Positions 3,201-49,656 of a stretch of 64,000 nt of DNA are shown piece after piece (position 1 is the stretch's first letter; each line of letters begins with the position of its first letter). Below the pieces are notes generated by a model. The model saw only the letters and a list, made by a program, of their open reading frames with translations. It was not told the DNA's origin and did no database searches. Made by a program: the position numbers and the translations under genes. Source of the stretch: Euryarchaeota archaeon (GTDB lineage: Archaea > Thermoplasmatota > SW-10-69-26 > JACQPN01); the NCBI GenBank assembly GCA_016207515.1, contig JACQPN010000012.1, positions 95,759 to 159,758 on the forward strand, given 5' to 3'.

Positions 3201-4460
3201 AAGGTCAAGGACTTCGAAAACGAGATGCTGCGGGCCAAGGTCGAATTCCTCCAGAGCGGCGACCATACGCCTGAAGAAGTCGTGGACTTCGAGTCGCTCC
3301 AAAAGCAGGAGTTCGAGCGCTTCATGGCGAGCTTCAAGAGCGAGCAGGCAAGGGCCGAGGGCTCTAACCGGGTCGAGTTCGAGAAGTGCAAGGACCTGGC
3401 CGTGAAGGACGCGAAAGCCCACGAGCGGCTCGGGAACTTCGAGATCACGATGGACGAATCCACGGGGACGGTGGAGGTCACCGGCAAGTTCGTGTCCTTG
3501 AAGGGCGACCAGGCAACGGAGCTCATCTCGGAGTACTCCGTGGGCGGGCAGCTGTTCTTGGACGGCGTCTCGACGACGGCCGTGTTCTCGGATTTCGGCA
3601 CCGATACGGACCCGGACGGCGTCTCGATGAAGATCGCTGGCGAAGGGTTCTCGTACAACATCCACGACAACCCGACCGGTCTTTGGAAGTTCCGTTCGAC
3701 CGATGGCGTCCAGTTCAAGGTGGACTTCGCGGACTATCTCGCCATCACGGACAAGGACGGAACGATTGCGTTGACCGATGGGACGACGACTGCCAAGTTC
3801 ATCGTGCGTGGCGGCGAGTACAAGCTCGAAGGCGACGTCTTGACCTTCGAAGGCGAGGGGTTGTTCCTCCTCAAGGCCAAGCGTGAGGCGCTCGACAAGG
3901 TCGCGAATTCCGCGACCGACGAGCTCGACGCGGCCGTCGAGAAGGGCACTCTCGGTGGAGAGGTGACGATCGTCAAGAAGGACGATTCCTCGCGCGTCGA
4001 CGAGACGCTCGAATACGAGGACATCACCTTGACCGTCGAGGCCCCAAAGGCGGATAAGGGGGTGTCTGTCCGCGTCTCTTCAGTAGAGGAGACGGGGAAG
4101 GTCATCGTCCTCAATGTCGACAAGTCGATAGTCGAAGGCGCAAACGCGGTCGTGAAGTTGTTCGACGTGACGACCGGCGCCGAGACCGAGGTCAAGATAA
4201 CGAAGGCTTCTAGCCTGACTGCGCTCCTTGCCGCGAGCGGCACGGAGTCGCAGTACTGGATCGTGACCGACGAGGACGGCGTGCAAGTGCTCGTCTACGT
4301 GGGACACTTCTCCGAGAAGAGGATCGAGGTGCAGTCGGCCGAGGCCGGAACGCAGGACGAAGCGAAGCCGAAGTCGCCGATACCCGGCTTCGAGCCTCTC
4401 GCCTTCATCGGCGCGGCGGCCCTCGTCGCGATCGCGTCGAGACGGTCGAAGAAGGATTAG
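213..4460 (+). CDS. Secreted cupredoxin protein with eight Cys-bounded helical repeats and a PGF-CTERM-like tail
   Basis: Seen: a GTG start and a signal peptide (about residues 1-26). A plastocyanin-like domain (about 48-127) has all four type I copper ligands in the expected order: H79, C113, H116, M119. A second cupredoxin-like domain (about 145-223) lacks the ligands and is probably structural. Residues 249-1059 form eight charged, helix-rich units, each bounded by two cysteines: 249/311, 330/413, 430/512, 531/614, 644/727, 747/828, 844/943 and 979/1059. Most pairs are 80-83 residues apart, with a central acidic HTEEE-like turn. A beta-rich region (about 1070-1380) follows. The C-terminus has IPGFE, a hydrophobic segment and RRSKKD, resembling the PGF-CTERM sorting signal. 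Inference: a long surface-anchored stalk made of disulfide-clasped helical hairpins carrying a copper domain, perhaps for extracellular electron transfer. The repeats are not a family I recognise. Confidence 0.85.
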   Translation: MNRSSTSKIVALLCVCFFVGSPVLAATDVVQVPAAPTRPDARQAEPNQIAIRGSSFSAPDVTITVGQSITWTNHDGFAHTVTASDGSFESGRLEQGATFTHVFKTVGKFAYFCSIHPGMQGIVNVVDAMTSDTGSVTEPSTNSASVTIHATGFDPQKIVLKAPVTVTWMNMADNARQLAFEDGTRSGEIPVHGTYTRTFEKAGAYVYFFAQRPDIRGAIIVCDATGCPPDQMDDSGSATTQPSIDQSECQRMYDEASARFRSEVLEPQEMRHKEFHASERTAEEDEAFHRELAQERDSKQSSYYTEADAKCSNDGSSSGDSSSGAGGNECENLRVQAEQNMRDYMVNVDARRKQFKTDLDAAHAEFDAETHTEEEHSQFHSQLRAKIGTFESELQTEIGETRQAYFKEFFERCAQSGSAGGQPQFGSECDGLRQNGETAFRDFLSGIEARRQAFQESQHAAIREFEAGDHSEEERAEFFYKIKASGSDFESQIESEIAGKKDEFFNEFNARCGGHEVYATGAGGEEFRNECEGLGRTAEESFRQFVSQLDARRKDFFTSMEQKRLAFEGERHNATEKEAFFSEWRRAMDDFQRSLQAEIDSKHSEMFRDFEAKCGQFGGFRGSPGEPMLGGGPGPGGFGESQECISLRENARVDFDALRSEQEAKRRTFFEGQAQEKRDFFNAKRTDAEISEFAGRQQKARDALEVEMQAAMRALEERLRKAMSEKCGAPPEGQGGEMQHYGPPPECIEFFKNMEAAGFGFEQERRAAREAFEERMGTLFSKLDDFDLTDLERQQIKKEIDEARYAFDESERSAIQAFKAANSFPEKCRPPGDIGADQIGANACGGEDIYVSTRAFEERLHDERARMEDAIKDKADSFRRNLDEREKDFLATTHTEAELSAFRAKQEKARVEFEETVRHEFAQLESRMRAHLDEYRAEKSGGCFGSDVANATRLGTAPERKQVQRPQRVDDTFEDFRACGEGRHEERLDIDLQVRLKVKDFENEMLRAKVEFLQSGDHTPEEVVDFESLQKQEFERFMASFKSEQARAEGSNRVEFEKCKDLAVKDAKAHERLGNFEITMDESTGTVEVTGKFVSLKGDQATELISEYSVGGQLFLDGVSTTAVFSDFGTDTDPDGVSMKIAGEGFSYNIHDNPTGLWKFRSTDGVQFKVDFADYLAITDKDGTIALTDGTTTAKFIVRGGEYKLEGDVLTFEGEGLFLLKAKREALDKVANSATDELDAAVEKGTLGGEVTIVKKDDSSRVDETLEYEDITLTVEAPKADKGVSVRVSSVEETGKVIVLNVDKSIVEGANAVVKLFDVTTGAETEVKITKASSLTALLAASGTESQYWIVTDEDGVQVLVYVGHFSEKRIEVQSAEAGTQDEAKPKSPIPGFEPLAFIGAAALVAIASRRSKKD

Positions 4461-4487
4461 CCAGGCTCTTGGAGGATACCGGGGCGG

Positions 4488-4513
4488 ACGGCGGATCGAA
4501 GTCCGCCGTTTTT
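4488..4513 (+). terminator. Hairpin terminator after the cupredoxin gene
   Basis: An 8-bp perfect stem (ACGGCGGA at 4488-4495, TCCGCCGT at 4502-4509) with a 6-base loop is followed directly by a T run. It sits 28 bases past the stop codon of the secreted protein gene. Confidence 0.6.
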
Positions 4514-4521
4514 CCGTTTTT

Positions 4522-4665
4522 TCACTTTTGCCGAGCGGACGCGATGAGGGCCACGACGGCAAGCGTCGCTATCCCGGCGGACGCGAGGAACACGGATTGG
4601 AAACCGTAGAGTTGCCAGACGACTCCGGCCCAGACAGCGGCGGATAGCGCCCCCACGTCGAGGAT
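4522..4665 (-). pseudogene. Detached 3' end of an MFS transporter gene
   Basis: On the minus strand a 47-codon open stretch ends in TGA and has no start codon; an in-frame TAG precedes it. It contains DVGAL then AVWAGVVW then GFQSVF. This aligns end to end with the C-terminus of the intact MFS protein at 8292-9473, which has GVGALVAGVWAGVVW then GFVTVF. I judge identity at roughly half. Both lie on the same strand, and the restriction-modification genes sit between them. It is a remnant of a second MFS gene or a displaced gene end. Confidence 0.65.
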
Positions 4666-4767
4666 CTACGGGTACGAGCCGGGATGCGGCGCATGAGGCG
4701 GACTTCGTGGATTTGATTGGACGTCACGGGTCGCTCTTTTGCCTTGTTGCAACGATGATCGCGGGGG

Positions 4768-5046
4768 CTAGACACCGCGTTGGTCAAGGAGGTCAAGCCG
4801 CAAGTAACGCGTGACCAGTCTGTAGACAATCGCCTTCTCTTTCTTGTCGTACGTTTTTTCCATTATCTCCGCATCAACCATGATTTCGAGGTCGCGATAT
4901 GTCGATTCCCGGTGGCGGTGCCCACCCCCGCGCTCCGAAACTCGGCTGTGAATCTCTTGCGCCGATAGCCTGTCGTCGGCTAGTACTTGGATAAGGCGGA
5001 GGCGGGTTTTCGACCGGAGGACCAAACCAATTCGTTGAAGGTCCAT
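4768..5046 (-). CDS. Small winged-helix regulator, ArsR-like
   Basis: A protein of 92 residues when started at the ATG at 5046 (MDLQRIGLVL). The frame continues upstream to 5100 but that part does not look like the domain. It has the usual winged-helix order: LRSKTRLRLIQVLADDRLSAQEIHSRV (helices 1-2), then a recognition helix around STYRDLEIMVDAEI, then a basic wing. It is probably a DNA-binding repressor. It is divergent from the restriction enzyme gene, with about 100-300 bp between them depending on that gene's start, so it may control the restriction-modification locus. The ligand or signal is unknown. Confidence 0.6.
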   Translation of the reverse strand: MDLQRIGLVLRSKTRLRLIQVLADDRLSAQEIHSRVSERGGGHRHRESTYRDLEIMVDAEIMEKTYDKKEKAIVYRLVTRYLRLDLLDQRGV

Positions 5047-5345
5047 GGTTCGACATGGGCGTAACCTTTTTTGTGACTTTGTTACATGTTTCAGTATCAA
5101 TTACCTTATTCCCGCTACAAATCTACGTTTGATGGCTAATTGGTGCCACTCACCTGACAACCGTTAGAGAGGGACGGGCGGGGCCAACGAAACAAACGCG
5201 GCAAGAGTCGGGATCGCCGCCTGGGCGCATCGCGGGAATCATCAGGGAAGTTGAGGCGAAGAATTCGAGTCCTGACGGACGCGGGATCGCTCCGTCCACA
5301 AAGTTAGCTGCCTTAGCCAACGTACTCGATTTCAATGCAACAGAG

Positions 5346-6440
5346 TTGGATCAATTGCTGGCCTCCGAATCCGCCATCTTGCGGACCGTGAAGGGGCACG
5401 CGTTCGAAATCGTGTTTGATAAACTATTGGCCCATATGGGCGTCCGGTGCGACGCGGTTGGCGGCGACACGGACGTTGATCGGGTCGTCAACGGTTTCAA
5501 GCTTCAGCTCAAGACTCCTACGCTAGCGGGAACTCGCGGAGAAATGGTGCAGTACAAGACCCACAAGACTCATGGTGCCAAATCCCAGGACGAATCTATG
5601 GATTACTATTCAGCTCGTGCGGAATTCCCCGATTTTCTAATCGGCCTCGTAACATACAAACCGCTGCGAATACTGTTTCTTCGTCGAGACGAATTGCCCG
5701 TGCATGCTGATGATCCGTCGAGAATCAAGAGCCCATTCGACTTAGATTGGAAAAGGCATGGTGGACTCAACGCGTCCCATCGTATTGGGCTAAAGCGTAT
5801 AACGGAGGTAAACGGCGTTACTCCAGGTGAAACGGAATTGCTTCCTCTCACATCGAAGAAGCTTGGTCTCGCGAGCGACATTATCTTGGATTCAATCCTT
5901 AAGTCCGAGAACTTTAGGGTGTGGGACATGAACGTCCTTGGTTTCGCGCGCGAATTCGCATTCCGGCGCCTGGCGCGTCTCAAAGGCGTTACGGTGTTAC
6001 CGGCCAATCATTGTGGCAGGACGCGCGCTGAGAAGGCGGACCTTGCGTTGACCTCTATTGGGACGGCGCGTTGTCACCACTTTCAGGTCAAGGGTGCGAC
6101 GTATAGCGCGTGCAAACTGGCCGGCAGAGGTTCAACCGTGGCTTTGGAGACGCAACTATCCAGGGGTCGGGTGAACGACCATCCGACGCAAAGCAGACTG
6201 TACCTCAAAACTGATTTCGATAGCATTATCGCCTGCCTTGAACCTCCCGTTGCTGACGCCTTCCGCGAAGAATTAGGCTTCAAAGCAAGAAAACGATGGG
6301 CATTCTTCTCTGTTCCCACGTCCCTTTTGGAACCCCATCCCAAAATGCCACACCGGTTGAAGTCAATGCAACACATATCGTATGAGACGTTGGTCGCCAA
6401 ACACGAGGTCAGTGAGCGTTGGCTCGAACGCTGGAGGTAA
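5346..6440 (+). CDS. Type II restriction endonuclease candidate with two PD-(D/E)XK-like halves
   Basis: The first conventional start is TTG 5346. The frame stays open back to 5133, and residues coded from about 5154 look like an XRE-type helix-turn-helix, so the real start may be CTG 5154 (see findings). Two halves share one pattern. The first has G17, E21, F24, L27, G32-V33, then D43/D45 and Q54-L-K56. The second has G199, E203, F206, L209, G214-V215, then D232 and Q247-V-K249. Each matches a PD-(D/E)XK core with a QxK variant. The gene converges on, and overlaps by 32 bp, a D12 adenine methyltransferase, with a second one beyond it. Inference: it cuts the unmethylated site those two enzymes protect. 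The family name is not certain, and the endonuclease role rests on motifs and context. Confidence 0.65.
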   Translation: MDQLLASESAILRTVKGHAFEIVFDKLLAHMGVRCDAVGGDTDVDRVVNGFKLQLKTPTLAGTRGEMVQYKTHKTHGAKSQDESMDYYSARAEFPDFLIGLVTYKPLRILFLRRDELPVHADDPSRIKSPFDLDWKRHGGLNASHRIGLKRITEVNGVTPGETELLPLTSKKLGLASDIILDSILKSENFRVWDMNVLGFAREFAFRRLARLKGVTVLPANHCGRTRAEKADLALTSIGTARCHHFQVKGATYSACKLAGRGSTVALETQLSRGRVNDHPTQSRLYLKTDFDSIIACLEPPVADAFREELGFKARKRWAFFSVPTSLLEPHPKMPHRLKSMQHISYETLVAKHEVSERWLERWR

Positions 6441-7287
6441 CGGTTGGCGGAAGTGGGGACTGAACTATTTGTCGAACCGGGTAGTTTGTGATCACAAGTT
6501 CGTTTCCAGTTTTCCGTCGTTGGCCTCGAAGATTCGACGTGTTGTAAAGCCAGCTACGTTCGTACACGTGTGCCCAACGGTAAAAATCTCTGACTTCTGG
6601 GCAATCGTCGTAGGATAGACAAAAACCCGCGTCAAGCACTTTCAGAGCACGCGCCAAGCGCAAGTGATCGGACGCCTTGAAGGGCTTCGTGTATGCACGT
6701 TTTTGATCAGCATGAAAGTATGGAGGGTCAAGGTACATCAAAACGCGCTTGCCCCTCGGGGGAGCTTCAAGAACCAGAGAGAAATCCCTGTCTGTAAGCT
6801 TCGCTCCAAGAAGCTTTTCGTGGGCCTTCCGTATTTTTTCGCCCCAAGTTCCGGGCGGCGCGCTTTGTGATTCTCTGTAGCCCCATGCTGGCTTGTTGAT
6901 AATTCCTGAATACGACGTTCGATTCAAGTAATACGTCTTGAAAGCGATTTCAAAGTCATTCGAGGGCCCGAATGCCTTGAGTTCGGCGTGACGCGTAGGA
7001 CTGGCAACCTCAGCCTGCATGCGTGCCGCGAGTTTCTGCGACAGCTCTGGGTCCGCCATGATTCGGTACGTCGCCATGAGATTGTCGTCAAGATCGTTGA
7101 GCCAATTGTACGGGACGCGGCGTTTCGCGAAGAAAATTGTTCCCCCGCCTAGGAACGGCTCCCGATATTCGTCGTGATCGTAGGCGTTGATAAATGGCAG
7201 TAGATGTTTGGTTGCATAGTATTTGCCTCCTGGGTATCGAAACGGCGAGATGACGGTCGTATCGACCGAGTCGCTAAATGCACTCAT
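6409..7287 (-). CDS. D12-class DNA adenine N6-methyltransferase, copy 1
   Basis: 292 residues. The family order is complete: FRYPGGK at 16-22 (AdoMet-binding), EPFLGGG at 43-49 (motif I), a central target-recognition region, and DPPY at 187-190 (catalytic motif IV). It transfers a methyl group from AdoMet to adenine N6. The gene overlaps the 3' end of the second methyltransferase (7274-7287), so the two are probably cotranscribed. Its 3' end overlaps the convergent restriction enzyme gene. Two Dam/DpnM-like methylases beside one endonuclease fit an asymmetric recognition site with one enzyme per strand. The region is more A/T-rich than the neighbouring chromosome, suggesting transfer. Confidence 0.88.
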   Translation of the reverse strand: MSAFSDSVDTTVISPFRYPGGKYYATKHLLPFINAYDHDEYREPFLGGGTIFFAKRRVPYNWLNDLDDNLMATYRIMADPELSQKLAARMQAEVASPTRHAELKAFGPSNDFEIAFKTYYLNRTSYSGIINKPAWGYRESQSAPPGTWGEKIRKAHEKLLGAKLTDRDFSLVLEAPPRGKRVLMYLDPPYFHADQKRAYTKPFKASDHLRLARALKVLDAGFCLSYDDCPEVRDFYRWAHVYERSWLYNTSNLRGQRRKTGNELVITNYPVRQIVQSPLPPTVTSSVRANAH

Positions 7288-18060: not shown

Positions 18061-19830
18061 ATGGCAATGCAGGCAACCACAGTGAAGCAAGCGGGAAAGA
18101 CCGGTTTGATCTACCGAGTCGCCGGGCCCGTCGTCACCGCCAAGGGCATCTCGGCCCGCATGTACGACGTCGTCTTCGTGGGGAAAGAGGAGCTCATGGG
18201 CGAGGTCATCGAGATCTCCGGCGACAAGACGATCGTCCAAGTCTATGAGGACACGAGCGGCATCAAGCCCGGCGAGCCCGTTCGAGAGACCGGTCAACCG
18301 TTGGTCGTCGAACTCGGTCCGGGCCTTCTCACCTCCATCTACGACGGCATCCAGCGTCCGCTCGTCGTCTTGAAGGATAAGATGGGCGACTTCATCCAGC
18401 GCGGCGTCTTCGCGCCCGGCCTCGACCACGCGAAGAAGTGGGATTTCAAGCCGAGCGTCAAGAAAGGCGACAAAGTGAAGGGCGGCGACGTTCTGGGAAG
18501 CGTCCAAGAGACGCAACGGATACACCACAAGATCCTCGTGCCGCCGAACGTGTCGGGCACGATCACGCAAGTGAGCCCCGAGGGAAAGTACACGATCGAC
18601 GAGACGGTCGCGAAGCTCGATACCGGAGCGGACCTGATGCTCCACCACAAGTGGCCGGTGCGCATCCCGCGCCCGTTCACCGAGAAGCTCCGCCCGGAGA
18701 TTCCACTTGTCACCGGACAGCGCATCCTCGATGGGTTGTTCCCGGTGGCGAAAGGCGGCGCCGCCGCCATCCCGGGCCCCTTCGGCTCCGGAAAGACGGT
18801 CACGCAGCAGGCACTCGCCAAGTGGTCGGACGCCGAGATAGTCGTCTACATCGGTTGCGGCGAGCGCGGCAACGAGATGACGGAGGTGCTCACGGAGTTC
18901 CCCGAACTCCAAGACCCCAAGTCCGGACGCCCCTTGATGGAGCGCACGGTCCTCATCGCGAACACGTCGAACATGCCTGTCGCGGCTCGGGAAGCGTCGG
19001 TGTACACGGGGATGACCATCGCCGAATACTATCGCGACCAGGGTTACGACGTGTCGCTCATGGCCGACTCGACGTCGCGCTGGGCAGAGGCCATGCGTGA
19101 GATATCGTCACGTCTCGAGGAAATGCCCGGCGAAGAAGGGTACCCGGCCTATCTTGCGGCGAAGCTTGCCGAGTTCTACGAACGCGCGGGCCGCGTCATA
19201 ACCCTTGACGGACAGAAGGGGTCGGTCACCGCCATCGGCGCCGTGTCGCCGCCGGGCGGCGACTTCTCCGAGCCCGTCACGCAAAACACCTTGCGCATCG
19301 TGAAGGTGTTCTGGGCTCTCGACGCAAAACTCGCTCAAAGGCGGCACTTCCCCTCGATCAACTGGCTGAACTCGTACACACTCTACGAGGAACTCCTCGC
19401 CGACTGGTACAAGGAGAACGTGGCCCCGGATTGGAACACGATGCGCTCACAGTTCATGGACATCCTCCAGCAAGAGGCCGAGTTGCAGGACATCGTGCAG
19501 CTCGTCGGCTCCGACGCGCTTCCCGCCGAACAGCAGTTGACCCTTGAGGTCGCCCGCATGATACGCGAGATCTTCCTCCAGCAGAACGCGTTCCACCCGA
19601 TCGACACGTACTGCCCGCTCGACAAGCAGTACAAGCTCATGAAGGCCATAATGAAATACCGCGACCTCGGAAAGACCGCCATGAACCGCGGCGTGCCCAT
19701 CACGACCATCGGCAGCGTAAAGGCGAAGGCCGAACTATCGCGGGCGAGGTTCGAGGAAGGCTTCGATCAACTCTACGAGAAGATCATGAAACAGATGGAA
19801 GACGAGTTCGCGAAGATGGAGGCGGCGTAG
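18061..19830 (+). CDS. atpA: A-type ATP synthase catalytic subunit A
   Basis: 589 residues, the catalytic ATPase subunit. It has the N-terminal beta-barrel, the A-specific non-homologous insert (about 110-200), a P-loop GPFGSGKT at 239-246 and [12 protein letters not shown] after it. There is no intein and the length is normal. Translation begins 6 bp after atpF. The last 98 codons occur again in diverged form at 20960-21253, and the last 38 or so a third time at 23617-23733, both downstream in the same orientation. atpB, normally adjacent, lies 5.5 kb away. Confidence 0.96.
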
Positions 19831-19867
19831 GGAGTCGCCCCAGGATGCCGTACCTTGCATCGCTCCA

Positions 19868-19885
19868 ATGGCCCGCCTGGGCCAT
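19868..19885 (+). terminator. Hairpin downstream of atpA
   Basis: Perfect 7-bp stem ATGGCCC/GGGCCAT with a 4-base loop, 38 bases after the atpA stop. There is no T run, so it may be an RNA 3'-end structure rather than a terminator. Confidence 0.35.
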
Positions 19886-19906
19886 CCGATTCCCGGTCGT
19901 CGGCTT

Positions 19907-20254
19907 TCACTCTTTCCGTTCGAGATCCGCCATGATCGATCGGATCTCTCGTTCCAGGATGGGGAGATCCTTCTTGACGACCTTCCAGACTCGCCTGTTG
20001 TCAACATTGGCGTAGGAGTGGATCACGACGTCCCTCAAGCCGGCTATCGACTTCCAAGGAACGGCCGGGCGCGTTTCACGTAGCTCGACCGGGACATGTT
20101 TCACCGCTTCGCCGATGATTTCGAGCCTGCGAAGCACGGCGTCCTGCTTCTCAGGCGCCGCCAGAAACCTTTTCAGGGTCACTCCATCCACATATTCCGA
20201 TATCCGCTCGATCGACTCCAGTATGTCGTCAAGGTAGATCACGGAATCCTTCAT
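19907..20254 (-). CDS. hepT: HEPN-domain toxin (HepT/DUF86)
   Basis: 115 residues. The HEPN RNase/AMPylation-target motif R-x4-H-x-Y is complete: R74, H79, Y81 in LRDVVIHSYANVD. HepT toxins are kept inactive by an MntA nucleotidyltransferase that modifies the tyrosine. The partner gene lies just upstream and overlaps by 4 bp (20251-20254). It is transcribed against atpA, inside the atpA-atpB gap. Confidence 0.87.
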   Translation of the reverse strand: MKDSVIYLDDILESIERISEYVDGVTLKRFLAAPEKQDAVLRRLEIIGEAVKHVPVELRETRPAVPWKSIAGLRDVVIHSYANVDNRRVWKVVKKDLPILEREIRSIMADLERKE

Positions 20255-20742
20255 AGAAGCGACACCTGGTCCGCGAGGATTCCTTCGCGTAGGCGGGGCT
20301 TGATCGATGCGTATTCCACCACATCTACGCGCCGTCCCGCGGCCTCTTCCAACTCAAGTTTGAGTGTCGCAAGGTCCAGGAGGCTTGCGTCCGACCCAAG
20401 TTCCACTAGGACGTCTATGTCGCTCGAAGACGTCGCGTCGCCTCGCGCGACGGAACCGAAAAGCGCGGCCTTCCTCACACCTTGCCGCCGCAGGACGGGG
20501 ACGAGGACGCCGCGAAGTGCCGCTATATCTGGGACGGTCTTCGCGGTGCCACGGCCCCTCTGGCGACCCGTTGGAGCCGTAAATTCGGCCGCCGGGTGTG
20601 GGAGGGCTACTTCCTTCATCACCAGAAGGTCGCCGGCGGTCTCCACCACAAGATGACTTCCCTGCTTGAGCTTGAGCGTCCGCCGGATCTCGACAGGAAT
20701 GACCACCTGACCCTTGGACGTGACTTTAGTCAAGACCGGCAT
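20251..20742 (-). CDS. AbrB-MntA fusion antitoxin (DNA-binding plus nucleotidyltransferase)
   Basis: 163 residues. Residues 1-45 are an AbrB/SpoVT swapped-hairpin domain (TKVTSKGQVVIPVEIRRTL). Residues 75-163 are a minimal nucleotidyltransferase with G96-S97 and D108/D110 (FGSVARGDATSSSDIDVLVE). A Pro/Gly/Arg linker joins them. MntA proteins AMPylate the HepT partner. Here the DNA-binding part is fused on, so one protein could both repress the operon and modify the toxin. A perfect palindrome lies 5 bases before the start codon. This fusion is not the standard MntA architecture. Confidence 0.82.
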   Translation of the reverse strand: MPVLTKVTSKGQVVIPVEIRRTLKLKQGSHLVVETAGDLLVMKEVALPHPAAEFTAPTGRQRGRGTAKTVPDIAALRGVLVPVLRRQGVRKAALFGSVARGDATSSSDIDVLVELGSDASLLDLATLKLELEEAAGRRVDVVEYASIKPRLREGILADQVSLL

Positions 20743-20747
20743 GATAG

Positions 20748-20770
20748 GTAAGAATGTAAGACATTCTTAC
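20748..20770. promoter_or_regulatory. Perfect palindromic operator of the HepT/MntA operon
   Basis: Arms GTAAGAATGT (20748-20757) and ACATTCTTAC (20761-20770) with a 3-base spacer. It lies between a minus-strand TATA-like TTTATTAG (about 20771-20778) and the ATG at 20742, so it covers the expected transcription start. The AbrB half of the antitoxin is the natural ligand. Confidence 0.7.
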
Positions 20771-20959
20771 TAATAAACCCTTGCCTTCCGGCGGCAGCAG
20801 TGGCCTTTGACCTTTGAGCATGGCCTGTCCACTTGTTCTACGAGCTGCCCTTGTGATAAGTCATGGGCTCCAGCTCCGCACTCGGGTCGAACTTCATCGC
20901 GCTCCGCGCCTCGACGTCGACGACCGCGCTCTTCCGACACTCTTTCCCACAGTGACCGG

Positions 20960-21253
20960 TTGACGCTCGAAGTCGCCCGCATGATACGCGAGATCTTCCT
21001 GCAACAGAACGCGTTCCACCCGATCGACACGTATTGTCCTCTCGACAAGCAGTACAAGCTCATGAATGTCATCATGAAGTACAGAGACCTCGGAGAAGTG
21101 GCGATGGGACGCGGTGCCCCGATAGCGACGATCGGCAGCGTCAAGGCGAAGGCTGAATTGTCGCGGGCGAGGTTCGAGGAAGGCTTCGATCAACTCTACG
21201 AGATGATCCTGAAGCAGATGGATGAGGAGTTTGGGAGGATGGAGGCGGCGTAA
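20960..21253 (+). pseudogene. Second copy of the atpA 3' end (98 codons)
   Basis: Bases 20960-21253 align without gaps to 19537-19830, from [13 protein letters not shown] to the stop. I count about 13 amino-acid differences in 97, so about 87% identity. There are many additional silent changes (for example TACTGCCCG against TATTGTCCT). The divergence pattern is that of coding sequence, so this end came from a diverged atpA rather than a fresh duplication. Upstream of 20958 homology stops abruptly. The open frame continues to 20807 but that part is unrelated. No start codon context; not expected to be a functional subunit. Confidence 0.88.
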
Positions 21254-21497
21254 GGCCAGGGTCGCGGTCGTTATTTCAACGCGCCGCCGCCGGGTTTCGC
21301 CGGGAGCGAAATCCTCTGCCAACCCAAGAATCGAAACCCGTTTGACATGGGGCCCGTCATGAAACCAAAGCGCAAATATGGATGGTGTCCCATGCGATTC
21401 CGTCGACCGGACTGCCCTGAGGTGGACCGAAGGGGACTACATGACGGTGATCAAACGAGCATCTGGACGCGGTGGAAGTACTCGGGGAGGGCGTTTC

Positions 21498-22397
21498 ATG
21501 GGCGCCGAACAAGCCAATTCGACTCTTGGTAAGATGATCGCCGGTCAAACCTTCGGGAGCGCGGAGGACGCGGATCGGTTCATGAGAAATCTTCTCGAGG
21601 CCAATGGCGGAAAGCTTCCGATGTTTTCGCCCGAGACGCCGTTGGAGGCCGCGCAGCAGGTATGTTATGATGCGTGGGAGGAAACGAGCGCATCGAAGGC
21701 TGCCTCCTTGGCCAGGAAAGCGCTCAAGATAAGCGGCGATTGCGCGGACGCGTACAACATCCTGGCCGAAAGCGAGTCAATAGCGGGAGCGGCGGCCCTC
21801 TTCGAAAAAGGAATGGCGGCGGGGGAGCGTGCCCTCGGGCCGCGCTTTTTCAAGGAGAACAAAGGTATGTTCTGGGGATTGATCGAAACGCGACCCTATA
21901 TGCGGTCGCGGGAAGGATACGCACGGTGCCTCTGGGCTATGGGGCGGCTTGATGAGGCCATGGCGCACTATGAGGCGATACTTGAGCTGAACCCGAACGA
22001 CAACCAGGGGAATCGAAGCGCGTTGTTCGAACTATACATGGAGAAGGGTCGGGTGGAGGATGCGGCCAAGCTCCTCGGCCGTTATCCAGACGATGCTCTT
22101 GTCGAGTCTTCATGGGGCGCGGTCCTCGTCGCTTTCGTCAGGGGCGAAGTGGCGACCGCGAAGCGGCTTCTGCGGACCGCGCGCAAGTACCATCCTCACG
22201 TTCCGGACTACCTGCTCGGCACGAGAAGGGTCCCTTCTGGCCTACCAGACCTTGTCGCGTGGGGGAGTCGCCAAGAAGCTGCCTCGTATGCGCGAAACAG
22301 CGGCGCTTTGTGGCAGCGTCATCCGGAAGCGTTGGAGTGGCTGAACGTGGAAGTCGGTGCGAAAGGCCACGCCCGCGTAGGAAAGCGGGACCCGTAG
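21498..22397 (+). CDS. Tetratricopeptide protein, ST7-like
   Basis: 299 residues from the ATG at 21498, which has GGGAGG 7 bases upstream; the frame also offers ATGs at 21378 and 21441. TPR-type helices cover about 55-220. The stretch GPRFFKENKGMFWGLIETRPYMR and later HYEAILELNPNDNQGNRSAL is a recognisable core found in bacterial and archaeal TPR proteins related to ST7. Role unknown, presumably protein-protein interaction. It is the first gene of the middle cassette between the second and third atpA-end copies. Confidence 0.75.
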   Translation: MGAEQANSTLGKMIAGQTFGSAEDADRFMRNLLEANGGKLPMFSPETPLEAAQQVCYDAWEETSASKAASLARKALKISGDCADAYNILAESESIAGAAALFEKGMAAGERALGPRFFKENKGMFWGLIETRPYMRSREGYARCLWAMGRLDEAMAHYEAILELNPNDNQGNRSALFELYMEKGRVEDAAKLLGRYPDDALVESSWGAVLVAFVRGEVATAKRLLRTARKYHPHVPDYLLGTRRVPSGLPDLVAWGSRQEAASYARNSGALWQRHPEALEWLNVEVGAKGHARVGKRDP

Positions 22398-22449
22398 CCG
22401 ACATTGCCCATTCTGGAGCGGTTTGGGCGCGCGAAATGTATTTAACTTA

Positions 22450-22465
22450 TTAACTACTTAGTTAA
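22450..22465. promoter_or_regulatory. Inverted repeat before the wHTH-nucleotidyltransferase gene
   Basis: TTAACT, a 4-base spacer, then AGTTAA, ending 3 bases before the GTG start at 22469. A TATA-like TATTTAACTTA lies just upstream (about 22438-22449). The position suggests autorepression by the winged-helix half of the encoded protein. Confidence 0.55.
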
Positions 22466-22468
22466 TTT

Positions 22469-23191
22469 GTGAAGTACCTCAAGCCCGCCGACTACCGGCT
22501 CCTTCATCGCCTAGTCCAGAGCCAATCGGGCGAGAAGGGACTGACGTTGAACGCGCTGGCCCAAGAATTGGGGGTGAGCTCCTCCTTCCTCTCTCAGCAG
22601 TTTCGAAGAATGATGCGCGACGACCTCGTCGAACGTAGCCAAGAGAGCTCTCCGGAGGGCCGGACGGTGAAGTACAGCGCCCGCGATTCCCTTGCAGTCC
22701 AATGGATCTCGCCCTCGAACGGCGCGTGCCTTCGATGGTTGGCGCACGGTGCCATCGATTGGGACTTCCCCCTCGTGACGCAAGTTCCCGACGTGGAAGC
22801 AAGAACGACCGTCCTTTCCTTTCTGCGCCGTCTTCGACGAGAATTCCCGGGAGAACCGGCCGAGCGGCCAACGGTGGTGATATACGGGTCGACTGCCCGC
22901 AGCAAGGCAAGGCCCGGGGCCGACGTTGATTGTATCGTCCTCGTCCCGGAGCCCGTCAAAGCCCACACCCGTAGGATCATCGATCTGGCCGCCGAAACAA
23001 GCCTGACCGCAAGCCGCCCCATACAGCCACGCGTCATCGGGCCGGGCCGATTCTTCGAATTGCCGAAAGTCATCCAAGAAGCCGTCCAAACGGACGGGCT
23101 CATCGTGTTCGCCGGCGTCGAGTCGGAACACGCCGCGACTCCGAAGGGGATTTGGGAACTCGTCTACGGGGGTCGGCCACCGGATGAATGA
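22469..23191 (+). CDS. Winged-helix/MNT nucleotidyltransferase fusion (antitoxin candidate)
   Basis: 240 residues from GTG. Residues 1-75 are a MarR-like winged helix (LTLNALAQELGVSSSFLSQQFRRMMRDDLVER). Residues 130-240 hold a nucleotidyltransferase with G140-S141 and D152/D154 (YGSTARSKARPGADVDCIVLV). It overlaps the HEPN gene by 8 bp, so the pair is a MNT-HEPN module. As in the first cassette the nucleotidyltransferase carries its own DNA-binding domain, but of a different fold. Confidence 0.8.
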   Translation: MKYLKPADYRLLHRLVQSQSGEKGLTLNALAQELGVSSSFLSQQFRRMMRDDLVERSQESSPEGRTVKYSARDSLAVQWISPSNGACLRWLAHGAIDWDFPLVTQVPDVEARTTVLSFLRRLRREFPGEPAERPTVVIYGSTARSKARPGADVDCIVLVPEPVKAHTRRIIDLAAETSLTASRPIQPRVIGPGRFFELPKVIQEAVQTDGLIVFAGVESEHAATPKGIWELVYGGRPPDE

Positions 23192-23546
23192 GGAAGAGTT
23201 GATGAAGGGGGCGGAGGAATGGCTCGCCGCAGCCAAAGAGAATCTCGCCGCCGGCCGGTTTCACACCGCGTTCGAATCGGCGAGACAGGCGGCCGAGCTT
23301 GCCGCCAAGGCCCTCCTGTCTCGTAAGTCCGGCAAGTACCCCTCCGACCACATGGTCGCAGGCCCACTTTTCCAAGCTGGTCTCCTGCCCGAAGGTGTCG
23401 ACGGCAAGCGCCTCCACAAACTGCTTTCGCGCTTCACGCTCGGCACCTACGGTTTCGACGAAACGGTGCACAGAAGCGAAGTCCAAGACGCCGTCCGACT
23501 GGCAGAACGAATGGTGAAGGCGCTGCGGGCGGCGGGCAAGAAATGA
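23184..23546 (+). CDS. HEPN-domain protein, partner of the nucleotidyltransferase
   Basis: 120 residues, all-alpha. The N-terminal MKGAEEWLAAAKENLAAGRFHTAFESARQAAELAAKALL pattern is the HEPN fold of the MNT-HEPN class. The R-x4-6-H RNase motif is not obvious; only RFTLGTYG occupies that area. It may therefore be a non-catalytic HEPN or use a variant motif. It is the likely toxin or effector half of the module. Confidence 0.7.
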   Translation: MNEEELMKGAEEWLAAAKENLAAGRFHTAFESARQAAELAAKALLSRKSGKYPSDHMVAGPLFQAGLLPEGVDGKRLHKLLSRFTLGTYGFDETVHRSEVQDAVRLAERMVKALRAAGKK

Positions 23547-23616
23547 GAGACCGGCGGTCGAGACGAACCGCGCGTCCGGGGCCGATCGACGGCCGCGAGT
23601 CGATAACACAATAGTG

Positions 23617-23733
23617 TCCGTCCAAACGAAGGCCGAATTGTAGCGGGCGAGGTTCGAGGAAGGCTTCGATCAACTCTACGAGCGGATCATGAAGCAGATG
23701 GAAGACGAGTTCGCGAAGATGGAGGCGGCGTAG
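23617..23733 (+). pseudogene. Third copy of the atpA 3' end, with an in-frame stop
   Basis: 39 codons matching the end of atpA, from SVKAKAEL onward (here SVQTKAEL) to MEAA and TAG. The codon after AEL is TAG instead of TCG, so the frame is broken. The remaining part (23644-23733) is almost identical to atpA at 19741-19830. A 5-bp hairpin (CGGCG/CGCCG) follows at 23739-23750. It separates the HEPN cassette from the PIN cassettes. Confidence 0.85.
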
Positions 23734-23754
23734 CGGCGCGGCGAACGCCGGTCT

Positions 23755-24183
23755 CTAGAGCCGACCCGCAAGCTCCTTCGTCGTGTAACATTTGACGCCC
23801 GCCTTTCGCGAAAGGCGCCTATCCTGGGTCCACACACTACCGGCGATGGCGATCGCGGTCGCCACGTACGGCGCGTCCAGGCGGTCCTTCTCGCCGAGCT
23901 TCTGCAATGCCACCGCGAGATGCGGCGCGATCGTCTCAAGGGGCACCGACGCGATTCGGTCCCGCATGATCTCGAGGAGCCGGTCAAACGCTTCCTCGGT
24001 GGCGCCGCTCTTCTTCAGAAGGAAGGCCCTGTTGCGATCTAACTCCTCCCAGAGGGCTTCTGGCGTGTTGAGATCCAAGCCGCCGAACATGATGATGTGC
24101 CTCGTGACACCAGTGCGAAGAAGCGCAGAAAACAGGACGTTGGCGTCGACGACCAGAGGCCCGAGCGTCTCATCGCTTGGCAA
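23755..24183 (-). CDS. vapC: PIN-domain toxin (VapC-like)
   Basis: 142 residues. PIN acidic residues: D13 (VVDANVLFSALL), E46/E47, D103 (RLDAPYVATA) and D121 (WTQDRRL). It belongs to the longer PIN group with a CxxC-free core. It overlaps its antitoxin gene by 14 bp (24170-24183), which suggests coupled translation with the antitoxin first. The expected activity is an RNase toxin. Confidence 0.82.
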   Translation of the reverse strand: MPSDETLGPLVVDANVLFSALLRTGVTRHIIMFGGLDLNTPEALWEELDRNRAFLLKKSGATEEAFDRLLEIMRDRIASVPLETIAPHLAVALQKLGEKDRLDAPYVATAIAIAGSVWTQDRRLSRKAGVKCYTTKELAGRL

Positions 24184-24394
24184 GTTTCTTCAATAGCCCC
24201 AGGTTTGCTTTTCGTGCGAGGCGCTCGACGTCCTCTCTGTCAAGCTCCGAGTTGGCGAACGCCGTGTCCAATGCATGGAGCTCCCGGAGTTTTCTTCGAA
24301 ACGCCTGCCGCGCGACCTCGCTCCACCTGACCTCGGGGTGGCGCCGGACCTCTTTGGCCGTCTCCTCATCGACGGACAGCGTCATGTTCGGCAT
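24170..24394 (-). CDS. vapB: VapB-type antitoxin, ribbon-helix-helix-like
   Basis: 74 residues. The N-terminal MPNMTLSVDEETAKEVRRHPEVRWSEVARQAFRRKL matches a ribbon-helix-helix DNA-binding antitoxin (strand, helix, turn, helix). The C-terminal part (about 45-74) is the toxin-binding tail. A palindrome begins 10 bases upstream of the ATG. Confidence 0.8.
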   Translation of the reverse strand: MPNMTLSVDEETAKEVRRHPEVRWSEVARQAFRRKLRELHALDTAFANSELDREDVERLARKANLGLLKKLAKR

Positions 24395-24403
24395 CGACTA
24401 GAA

Positions 24404-24419
24404 TATGTGAACTCACATA
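24404..24419. promoter_or_regulatory. Palindromic operator of the PIN/antitoxin operon
   Basis: TATGTGA and TCACATA arms with a 2-base spacer. On the minus strand a TATA-like CTATAAATT precedes it (about 24418-24428), and the vapB ATG follows 10 bases later. It covers the likely transcription start, as expected for autoregulation. Confidence 0.65.
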
Positions 24420-24562
24420 ATTTATAGTTTTCGCGTCGGGAAACGCGTCCTGTGCGTCGTTTCGTACAAGTCTCTGGTCCACGCCAAGGCCGGTTTCGTA
24501 TCGACTAGGTGCCACAGTGCGCCGCCGCGCCAGGTCTTCACGATGGGAGGGTGAAAGGCTGT

Positions 24563-24955
24563 TTAATAGGTCCTCACGCCCAACCCCTCGACCCTCCCGA
24601 AATCGTCCACGTCCCTCGTGACCACCGCTTCGCCCTCTTCGAGCGCTATACCTGCGATGAGGATGTCCACAGGATCGATCCTCCGCCCTCTCCTGATCAG
24701 GGCACCAGATATCCTTCCCGCGCGCAGGGCATGGCGCGATTCCAACCCGATCGACGGGAAGCGATCCAAGGTGTCTCTCAGATTCTCCCACTCACGAGGA
24801 GGATAACGAGACCGCTCGACGCCCTCGACGAGTTCGAAGTATGCAGGGGTCGGGATCCTCAGGACGTCCGTCCCGCTTTCCAATTCGTCTAGAAGCCCCA
24901 AAGCGGCAAAATCGCCGCGCAGGATGTCGATGACGAAGCTCGTGTCGAGGATCAC
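24563..24955 (-). CDS. vapC: PIN-domain toxin (VapC), second pair
   Basis: 130 residues, classical VapC size. Active-site acids: D4 ([12 protein letters not shown]), E41/E44 (FELVEGVERSR), D97 (VDILIAG) and D115/D118 (TRDVDDF). It overlaps its antitoxin gene by 4 bp (24952-24955). It is not closely similar to the PIN protein at 23755, so the two pairs are independent acquisitions. Confidence 0.87.
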   Translation of the reverse strand: MILDTSFVIDILRGDFAALGLLDELESGTDVLRIPTPAYFELVEGVERSRYPPREWENLRDTLDRFPSIGLESRHALRAGRISGALIRRGRRIDPVDILIAGIALEEGEAVVTRDVDDFGRVEGLGVRTY

Positions 24956-25233
24956 GTGCGACGCCTCTCGCGACGTAGGTCGTCCGGCGCCGTCGTTTCG
25001 CCCTCCGGAAGACCCAGCTTTTTGACCCTCGCCTCAGTCCGTTCTTGCTTGTTCATCTGGACGGCCTCGGCGAGCGCTTCGGCCTCCTTTGGAGAGATGA
25101 ACTTCTGTAGGTCGCGTAGCGAAGGTTTGTGGGCCAGGCGGCGGATGACGTCGCTGAACGACTCGCCGGCCCGCTTCTCTTTGGCAAGCAGTTCGTATGC
25201 GTCGTCCGCGACCGACAACGTCTTCGTTCCCAT
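24952..25233 (-). CDS. vapB: VapB antitoxin (DUF217-like)
   Basis: 93 residues from the ATG at 25233 ([20 protein letters not shown]). The N-terminal motif plus [16 protein letters not shown] is the archaeal DUF217/VapB pattern. The C-terminus is charged and probably disordered until bound to VapC. A longer frame to 25260 adds nine residues that do not look native. Confidence 0.8.
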
Positions 25234-25300
25234 GCATCCGTGTATGTGTGGTCTGTGCATATTATCTCTTCGAGAACCCTGCCAAAAGTCTACATCATCA

Positions 25301-48314: not shown

Positions 48315-49031
48315 TTGAGGAACGGGAGGCTGCTACCCCTGACGCTCACGGAGGTCGTCTACAAGATCAAGAGCAACGATAATCTTCTCTGCCAGGCGAC
48401 GGAGAAGAGCGACGACCTCAAGATCGTCACGAACCAGATCTCGTACGAGCGCGAGGCGCGTAACGCGAGGTTCCTCGTCACGGTGGTCGGTGACGACGCC
48501 CACACGAGCGAGGTGCTACAGGTCCTTCCGAAGCTTTTCGACAGCGCCGACGTGGTCGCCCGCACGAAGAACTCTGTGGCCGTGCGCGCTAGCGCATCCC
48601 TGCAGAAACTCATCGACACGAAGAACCCGAGTGCCTTCTCGCTCCAATACTTCAACGACCTCGCAATAGTGCACCCTTCGGTCGTCAAGGGCGGGTATTA
48701 CAACACGCGCGTCATCGTCGTCGGGAAGGTGGACCTTGCGGAGCTACTCGCCGACTACGAGAAAGGGGCGGCGAGCGGCCTCTGGGACGACTTCAAGCTC
48801 ATCCGCATCGACGATTTCGACCCCGAGCAGCAGGTGACGGGCGCTTTCATCGAGAACCTCACGGCAAAACAGCTCGAGGTCATCAAGACGGCGCTCGCAC
48901 TTGGCTACTATAACACGCCGCGAAACATCACCCTGGACAACCTCTCGGCGATCTTCGGCATCTCGAAGGCGGCCGTCCATAACAGGTTGCAAGCGGCCGA
49001 AAGGAAAGTCATCAGCAAGTTCTTTTCCTGA
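48315..49031 (+). CDS. HTH-10 (Bat-like) transcription regulator
   Basis: 238 residues from TTG 48315; the initiation codon is doubtful (see the TATA entry). The N-terminal part (about 9-150) is a sensor region with RFLVTVVGDD and YYNTRVIVVG strands. The C-terminal HTH-10 domain (about 180-238) is typical: LTAKQLEVIKTALALGYYNTPRNITLDNLSAIFGISKAAVHNRLQAAERKVI split over its helices, ending SKFFS. Its last 13 codons recur four times downstream, each behind a hairpin. Confidence 0.85.
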   Translation: MRNGRLLPLTLTEVVYKIKSNDNLLCQATEKSDDLKIVTNQISYEREARNARFLVTVVGDDAHTSEVLQVLPKLFDSADVVARTKNSVAVRASASLQKLIDTKNPSAFSLQYFNDLAIVHPSVVKGGYYNTRVIVVGKVDLAELLADYEKGAASGLWDDFKLIRIDDFDPEQQVTGAFIENLTAKQLEVIKTALALGYYNTPRNITLDNLSAIFGISKAAVHNRLQAAERKVISKFFS

Positions 49032-49304
49032 GGCCGAGTGGGACGCCAAGCGTTCCACTGCGGCGGAGCGCAAAGTCATCTCGAAGTTTTTCTCGTAAGC
49101 TCCGACCCGTGGAAGGCGTAGCCTTCCACCAGGGCCGAAAGGAAAGTCATCAGCAAGTTCTTTTCCTGAGGCCGAGGGGAGGCGAAGCCTCCGCCACCGC
49201 GGAGCGAAAGGTCGTTTCCAGGTTCTTTTGGTCGAGCGCCGCCGGGTCGACGCGGAGCGTCCACCACGGTCGAACGAAAAGTGATCTCGAGATCTTCTTC
49301 TTGA
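48993..49304 (+). repeat. Array of five gene-end copies separated by hairpins
   Basis: Unit 0 (48993-49031) is the true 3' end of the HTH-10 gene, coding AAERKVISKFFS and stop. Unit 1 (49060-49098) codes the identical peptide and a stop but with most codons synonymously changed. Unit 2 (49134-49169) repeats unit 0 base for base, and the identity runs 7 bases past the stop. Unit 3 (49196-49237) is TAERKVVSRFFW with the stop lost. Unit 4 (49269-49304) is VERKVISRSSS and stop. Period 65-71 bases. Hairpins lie between units at 37-59, 109-129, 178-192 and 249-261 (offsets from 49000), each with a 3-base loop (CAA, GTA, GAA, GGA). Confidence 0.88.
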
Positions 49305-49582: not shown

Positions 49583-49656
49583 GGCCAGGAACGGGATTTG
49601 AACCCGTGTCGAGGGATCCACAGTCCCTTAGGATAACCAGCTACCCCATCCCGGCC
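49583..49656 (-). tRNA. tRNA-His (GTG)
   Basis: Folds completely on the minus strand. Acceptor GCCGGGA/TCCTGGC (one G-T pair), with the extra G at -1 (49656) facing C73 (49583) as tRNA-His requires. D-arm TAGCTGGTTA region, anticodon loop CTGTGGA (anticodon GTG), T-loop TTCAAAT with 5-bp stem. No CCA is encoded. A minus-strand TATA-like TTTTTATAAG lies about 55-65 bases upstream (49710-49722). Confidence 0.95.

Follow-up and report, generated by a model that had tools for sequence, protein, structure and literature searches.

Stacked copies of its own 3' end behind an archaeal HTH_10 regulator gene

Results

The HTH_10 gene and its reiterated end

The window, i.e. the whole stretch of 64,000 nt that was analysed, comes from a euryarchaeal genome (G000) and contains on the + strand a regulator gene (48315..49031) that matches the HTH_10 profile (Pfam PF04967, E 3.4e-19) and has orthologues with 54-61% identity in four genomes of the order. 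Its start was placed so as to give the longest ORF; conservation of the protein sets in near 48342. The last codons of the gene (AAERKVISKFFS plus stop, 48993..49031, unit 0) overlap the end of an invariant HNRLQAAERKV segment. Behind the stop the gene end is reiterated on the same strand, with four copies of the last 12-13 codons (36-39 bases) at 49060-49304, which alternate with hairpins and are spaced by 67-71 nt from start to start; a search of the genome found no copies of this gene end beyond these four.

Hairpin h1 (AGTGGGACGC-CAA-GCGTTCCACT, 10 bp with a 3-nt loop, 49037..49059) precedes unit 1 (49060..49098), in which 12 residues and the stop are unchanged and 8 of 13 codons are altered, all synonymously. 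Hairpin h2 (GTGGAAGGC-GTA-GCCTTCCAC, a perfect 9-bp stem with a GNA triloop, 49109..49129) is followed by unit 2 (49134..49169), which is identical to the gene end; the identity runs about 10 nt beyond the stop, 46 of 47 bases matching when the post-stop DNA is included. Behind h3 (GGAGGC-GAA-GCCTCC, 6 bp, 49178..49192) lies unit 3 (AERKVVSRFF, 49199..49234), which is decaying and has lost its stop, and behind h4 (GACGC-GGA-GCGTC, 5 bp, 49249..49261) the most decayed copy, unit 4 (VERKVISRSSS plus stop, 49269..49304). The first-pass annotation of this DNA had described units of about 68 bases, the first a synonymous version of the last 12 residues plus stop, the second a base-for-base copy and the third and fourth decaying, and this description holds. 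Beyond the array, on the - strand, there is a tRNA gene (49583..49655, Rfam tRNA, 58.3 bits), by eye a tRNA-His with a GTG anticodon; in the related genomes G001 and G002 a + strand tRNA, by eye of the same kind, is found 3' of HTH_10.

Coding history of the units

The gene end at 48996-49031 (AERKVISKFFS plus stop) was compared with positions 49063-49098 of unit 1, which itself extends to 49060 with one extra Ala codon. All 12 codons specify the same residue or stop despite 11 differences in 36 nt (25/36 identical), and the Ser codon has changed from AGC to TCG, which cannot be reached by one synonymous step. Among 400,000 randomly drawn sets of 11 substitutions not one kept the peptide, and the chance of an all-synonymous unit 1, calculated as the product of single-mutation odds, is 8.8e-9 (about 1e-8). 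As there are 11 differences, none of them non-synonymous, together with a switch of the Ser codon family, unit 1, the freshest copy, must by its sequence once have been under coding selection as a gene end. Unit 4 is closer to the copy found in G001 (29/36) than to its own gene (23/36). Arginine codons at HTH_10 are CGN in units 1, 3 and 4 and in all relatives but AGG in the gene end of today and in unit 2, a split that points weakly to a new end at the gene and old ends behind it.

Hairpins and spacers

According to the first-pass annotation the hairpins share their form and are unrelated in sequence. Stems with 3-base loops do separate the units, and three of the four hairpins have GNA triloops, but h1 and h3, which stand 3' of the gene end and of its identical copy unit 2, appear homologous when inspected by eye, and only h1 (z -3.08) and h2 (z -3.80) fold better than shuffled sequence, whereas h3 (z -0.79) and h4 (z +0.81) do not. 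As the similar h1 and h3 stand behind identical ends, an end and its hairpin seem to travel together. Genome-wide, hairpins after stops are mildly enriched (5.0% versus 1.9%).

Across the short sites described here, in G000 and its relatives, there are ten spacers of 29-73 nt, each consisting of a short post-stop leader and one or more hairpins that end a few bases before the next copy. None of the ten holds a remnant of cargo, and at HTH_10 no cargo was seen in any relative compared. Thus, the suggestion that cassettes had been inserted between the units and lost again is not borne out.

Duplicated gene ends elsewhere in the genome

In sampled stretches of G000 (1421 genes in about 1.45 Mb of 2.67 Mb) we searched the DNA downstream of every gene for end-anchored copies of its C-terminus, short cases being those within 450 nt. 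The succession of stop, hairpin and mostly synonymous copy of the gene's own end was found at HTH_10, at queE, at a gene for a geranylgeranyl-reductase-like FAD protein and at a small HTH-like gene. The queE copy (G000:C2:2786, HKHIWGEARGR plus stop) has 6 differences, all 6 synonymous; the reductase-like copy (G000:C2) has 4 synonymous and 2 non-synonymous codons; and the small HTH-like gene (G000:C4:12329) is followed by two gene-end units. The hairpins in front of these two units (L072 12330-12463) have stems of GATGAC/GTCATC in one case and GGTGAC/GTCACC in the other, a paired change. Altogether six G000 genes have truncated end-anchored copies, two copies each lying behind atpA, tyrS and the small HTH gene, whereas a start-anchored upstream search gave no comparable case. 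Taken alone, this contrast between ends and starts, six genes against none, carries only modest weight (sign test P 0.03). Gene ends compared with the downstream DNA of other genes in the sampled G000 stretches gave 0 matches at the same score.

Several candidates from these searches were set aside. The one short exact repeat that came from the start-anchored search, at the margin of contig C25, is a tandem repeat, the shared tail of rpl10 and L12 (L081) reads as ordinary paralogy of ribosomal stalk proteins, and the shared ends in L063/L064 belong to tandem paralogues. The latter cluster (G000:C12:159001-184646) has C-termini such as AKEHKLSRKWW plus stop and shared repeats over about 20 kb.

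Gene-end copies in related genomes

The order is represented by five genomes, and in two metagenome-assembled genomes (MAGs) of other families, G001 and G004, of each of which about 0.4 Mb was sampled, gene-end copies were found at the same genes. In G001 one extra HTH_10 end lies behind a hairpin and copies this genome's own AERKVIARYFS plus stop with 3 of 3 differences synonymous; this is the pattern for which the first-pass annotation had proposed to search related genomes. In G004, from a third family, one extra queE end lies behind two hairpins and copies the genome's own VIWGHEKGR plus stop, 3 of 3 differing codons being synonymous and all changes being either synonymous or in the stop codon. 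The copies thus track the residues of their lineage, SKFFS in G000 and ARYFS in G001 at HTH_10, HIWGEARGR in G000 and VIWGHEKGR in G004 at queE, and a reading of the units as terminator repeats unrelated to the gene, against which the first-pass annotation had set its own, fails on this point.

No HTH_10 end copies were found in G002, G003 or G004, a distribution that fits insertion, and no queE end copies in G002 or G003. Outside the order, the queE loci of about 20 genomes and more distant HTH_10 homologues are likewise free of copies. As the copies differ between lineages and are absent elsewhere, the events are lineage-specific. Two genes were hit in more than one family; of 21 orthologue tests, two gave a hit (P 0.004-0.014). 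At the G004 HTH_10 locus hairpins are present without a copy: several stand in a row (L005, 2188-2400), and one palindrome holds GCCGAACG, the first bases of a gene-end unit, perhaps as a remnant. No donor genome was found among the five genomes of the order, and viral contigs, phages and plasmids contain no relatives of the HTH_10 gene or the array.

The distribution of changes bears on the origin of the copies. Nucleotide differences spare peptide and stop at four sites in 11/11, 6/6, 3/3 and 4/4 cases. Since the peptide was kept through 11, 6, 3 or 4 base changes, the copies are, on the evidence of their codons, derived from working genes, being either displaced old ends of the same gene or ends from relatives. 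Only unit 1, the queE cases and the G001 case have a clear coding history; units 3 and 4 and the reductase-like and small HTH copies do not, because they carry non-synonymous changes. Local tandem duplication of gene end and hairpin by replication slippage, followed by decay, would make the copies incidental, and it would account for the constant unit length, for the presence of hairpins, which promote slippage, and for a unit 2 that equals the gene end. Non-coding copies should, however, differ mostly by non-synonymous changes, so that unit 1 and three further sites contradict slippage; it could still explain unit 2, and as an account of the array we regard it as very improbable.

An assembly artefact, i.e. 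strain variants joined at palindromes, is less credible still. Hairpins and strain variation are well known to provoke misassembly, and all genomes used here are drafts, those with known titles being MAGs, but the copies occur in three separate assemblies and differ in sequence among them, a match of 25/36 puts unit 1 beyond the range of strain variation, and units 3 and 4 have decayed.

Longer copies with cargo at atpA and tyrS

The same structure, with cargo, is found at atpA and tyrS. The atpA gene lies in the window (18061..19830, + strand) and is followed on the same strand by two copies of its 3' end, one of 107 codons with 88 identical residues (20933..21253) and one of 42 codons with 37 (23608..23733). 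The parallel to atpA that had been drawn from the sequence is thus real: the copies, at +1387 and +3867, are accompanied by cargo, with MntA/HepT-like and MarR-MNT/HEPN modules of the toxin-antitoxin type and a TPR protein. The whole atpA-atpB interval (19831-25260) holds MazE-MNT/HepT, MarR-MNT/HEPN and two PIN proteins besides the two end copies. At tyrS (L157, G000:C9:68501-88500, 4357-6552) the order is tyrS, a 147-aa ORF overlapping its stop, an end copy of 54-56 codons, an ORF that is RelE-like by eye and a further copy, the latter a 145-codon open stretch with an internal insertion. The 147-aa ORF has no significant Pfam, NCBIfam or PDB match and no relatives in 390 genomes; a GIY-YIG label was given to it by eye only and, being without database support, was dropped.

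The cargo brings in two further explanations. The first is a homing-type element, whose endonuclease would cut a conserved segment just before the stop, repair then copying the element's gene end and cargo and displacing the native end, with HTH_10, queE and the other short sites as cargo-less derivatives. A cut in conserved codons would explain both the shared start codon of the copies and the recurring genes, as the junction is near-constant and lies beside the most conserved codons and the same two genes are hit in different families. In addition, cargo ORFs do stand between the end copies of tyrS and atpA, and there is a fungal precedent with the same signature, 64-81% nucleotide versus 94-100% residue identity (PMC3630166). 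However, no endonuclease was identified at any site, the only resemblance to one being that seen by eye at tyrS, and the short sites have neither cargo nor remnant. We consider such an element a possible but rather doubtful source of the arrays.

The second explanation is a stack of attachment sites (accretion/CIME), in which integrative elements with a site-specific recombinase would have taken the gene 3' end for their attB, bringing a synonymous end in its place, and would afterwards have disappeared. Such integration leaves direct repeats with lineage-matched substitutes at the 3' ends of genes, and repeats of this kind, which restore the coding sequence, are present here; the atpA and tyrS arrays, too, resemble accretion. 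Yet none of the five tyrosine recombinases of G000 is beside a detected duplicated gene end; they lie elsewhere, four of them beside tRNA genes. Site-specific integrases are therefore less likely, and their remnants should be random, whereas the short spacers are uniformly hairpin only. The array, moreover, has no phage match, and its plasmid matches are short and chance-like. Taken together, stacked attachment sites are improbable. The recombinases are located on C13, C18, C5, C25 and C2 (C2:317833), the tRNAs being Leu, Gln, Asn and Glu/Ser, with one recombinase lacking a nearby tRNA.

Discussion

Based on these findings we favour, with a probability of about 60%, that the array is a stack of former HTH_10 3' ends that arose from repeated replacement of the gene end by DNA of relatives. 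The first-pass annotation had likewise proposed that coding ends of homologous genes were acquired and came to be stacked; acquisition or retention as coding ends is supported by the all-synonymous differences and by the independent cases at queE in G000, HTH_10 in G001 and queE in G004. From the sequences we infer the direction of displacement, donors among relatives and the joining step as follows. In each round DNA of a relative carrying the homologous gene would recombine with the conserved gene body as homologous anchor, and the incoming, synonymously different end together with its own 3' hairpin would replace the working end. The far side would join directly in front of the old end, some 36-39 nt ahead of its stop. 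Separated from the gene by a stop and a hairpin, this old end would become non-coding and decay, so that the array would read roughly from newest (the gene) to oldest (unit 4). The joining step would most likely be one-sided homologous recombination, a process similar to homology-facilitated illegitimate recombination; the incoming strand would have a non-homologous tail that ends at a stable hairpin, and the spacers would fit trimming back to it.

The G000 queE copy is closer to G003 (33/39) than the present G000 gene end is (28/39), which favours a new end at the gene and an old end behind. Order by age is not strict, as unit 2 equals the gene end and a newest-to-oldest reading needs either return of the same end or conversion. 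Additionally, the four G000 copies and the one G001 copy of the HTH_10 end all start at codon -12 or -13, beside the invariant segment. This near-constant junction and the recurrence at the same genes exceed what random one-sided recombination would give and thus hint at a site-specific step. We may therefore speculate, with little confidence, that a hairpin-bounded gene-end replacement, possibly templated by single-stranded DNA or RNA, operates in this archaeal order, its unit reaching from the last codons to the end of the 3' hairpin, and that it prefers particular genes and lets toxin-antitoxin modules ride on longer versions.

Gene hybrids are described from fungal mitochondria, in atp6 of Allomyces and atp6, atp9, cox2 and nad3 of Glomus, together with mobile endonuclease ORFs (PMC3630166). 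There, as would be the case here under serial displacement, a foreign C-terminal end replaces the native one, which is pushed downstream; the purely synonymous end copies are in keeping with this, and in both settings nucleotide identity is low while residue identity is near complete. In the fungal cases an endonuclease ORF lies between the ends, whereas the short sites HTH_10, queE, reductase-like gene and small HTH gene have hairpins only, and one displaced end is the rule there, whereas up to four are stacked here, in an archaeal chromosome. Orphan 3' ends of Rhs/T6SS loci are similar in that a new 3' part is inserted behind a conserved 5' anchor, the old one is shifted downstream and repetition yields an array; correspondingly, four displaced 3' ends stand behind the one intact HTH_10 gene. 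The Rhs/T6SS 3' parts, however, differ from each other and are selected as toxins or immunity proteins; the ends found here are not diverse in this way but belong to ordinary cellular genes, whose peptide they keep unchanged or almost so, with about 12-17 codons left. Insertion of restriction-modification genes with long target duplication (Nobusato et al. 2000, cited in PMC1643837) also places selfish-type genes between direct repeats, as at atpA and tyrS; in that case the duplicated target flanks the restriction-modification genes, and the pattern as given in PMC1643837 includes neither synonymous foreign ends nor hairpin spacers.

If serial displacement is correct, recombination between species can be read at single genes from the displaced ends, which keep the alleles of successive donors in order, and 3'-end displacement as known from fungal mitochondria and bacterial toxin loci would extend to archaeal chromosomes and ordinary cellular genes. 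Toxin-antitoxin modules could by the same route come to lie behind essential genes, atpA and tyrS among them, without doing harm.

Mitochondrial DNA of fungi and other organisms contains repetitive or double hairpin elements, which are likewise small, possibly mobile hairpins in and next to genes (PMC2800124). Those elements are repeats of related sequence, whereas most hairpins here are unlike one another and accompany a gene-specific end. The queE and reductase-like copies of G000 sit behind hairpins resembling a rare T-rich intergenic type. A shared mobile hairpin family, i.e. a separate transposon, was considered for them and rejected; because of their resemblance to this rare bidirectional type they are read instead as 3'-end structures. 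The rare family itself (L059:10040, L070:6717, L072:2106, L107:18521 and L100:1487-1540) has the consensus [GCA|CGA]CGC-T5-6NNNN-loop-NNNNA5-6-GGG[TGC|TCG] with a conserved internal mismatch, and its members, being T-rich on both strands, are probably bidirectional terminators.
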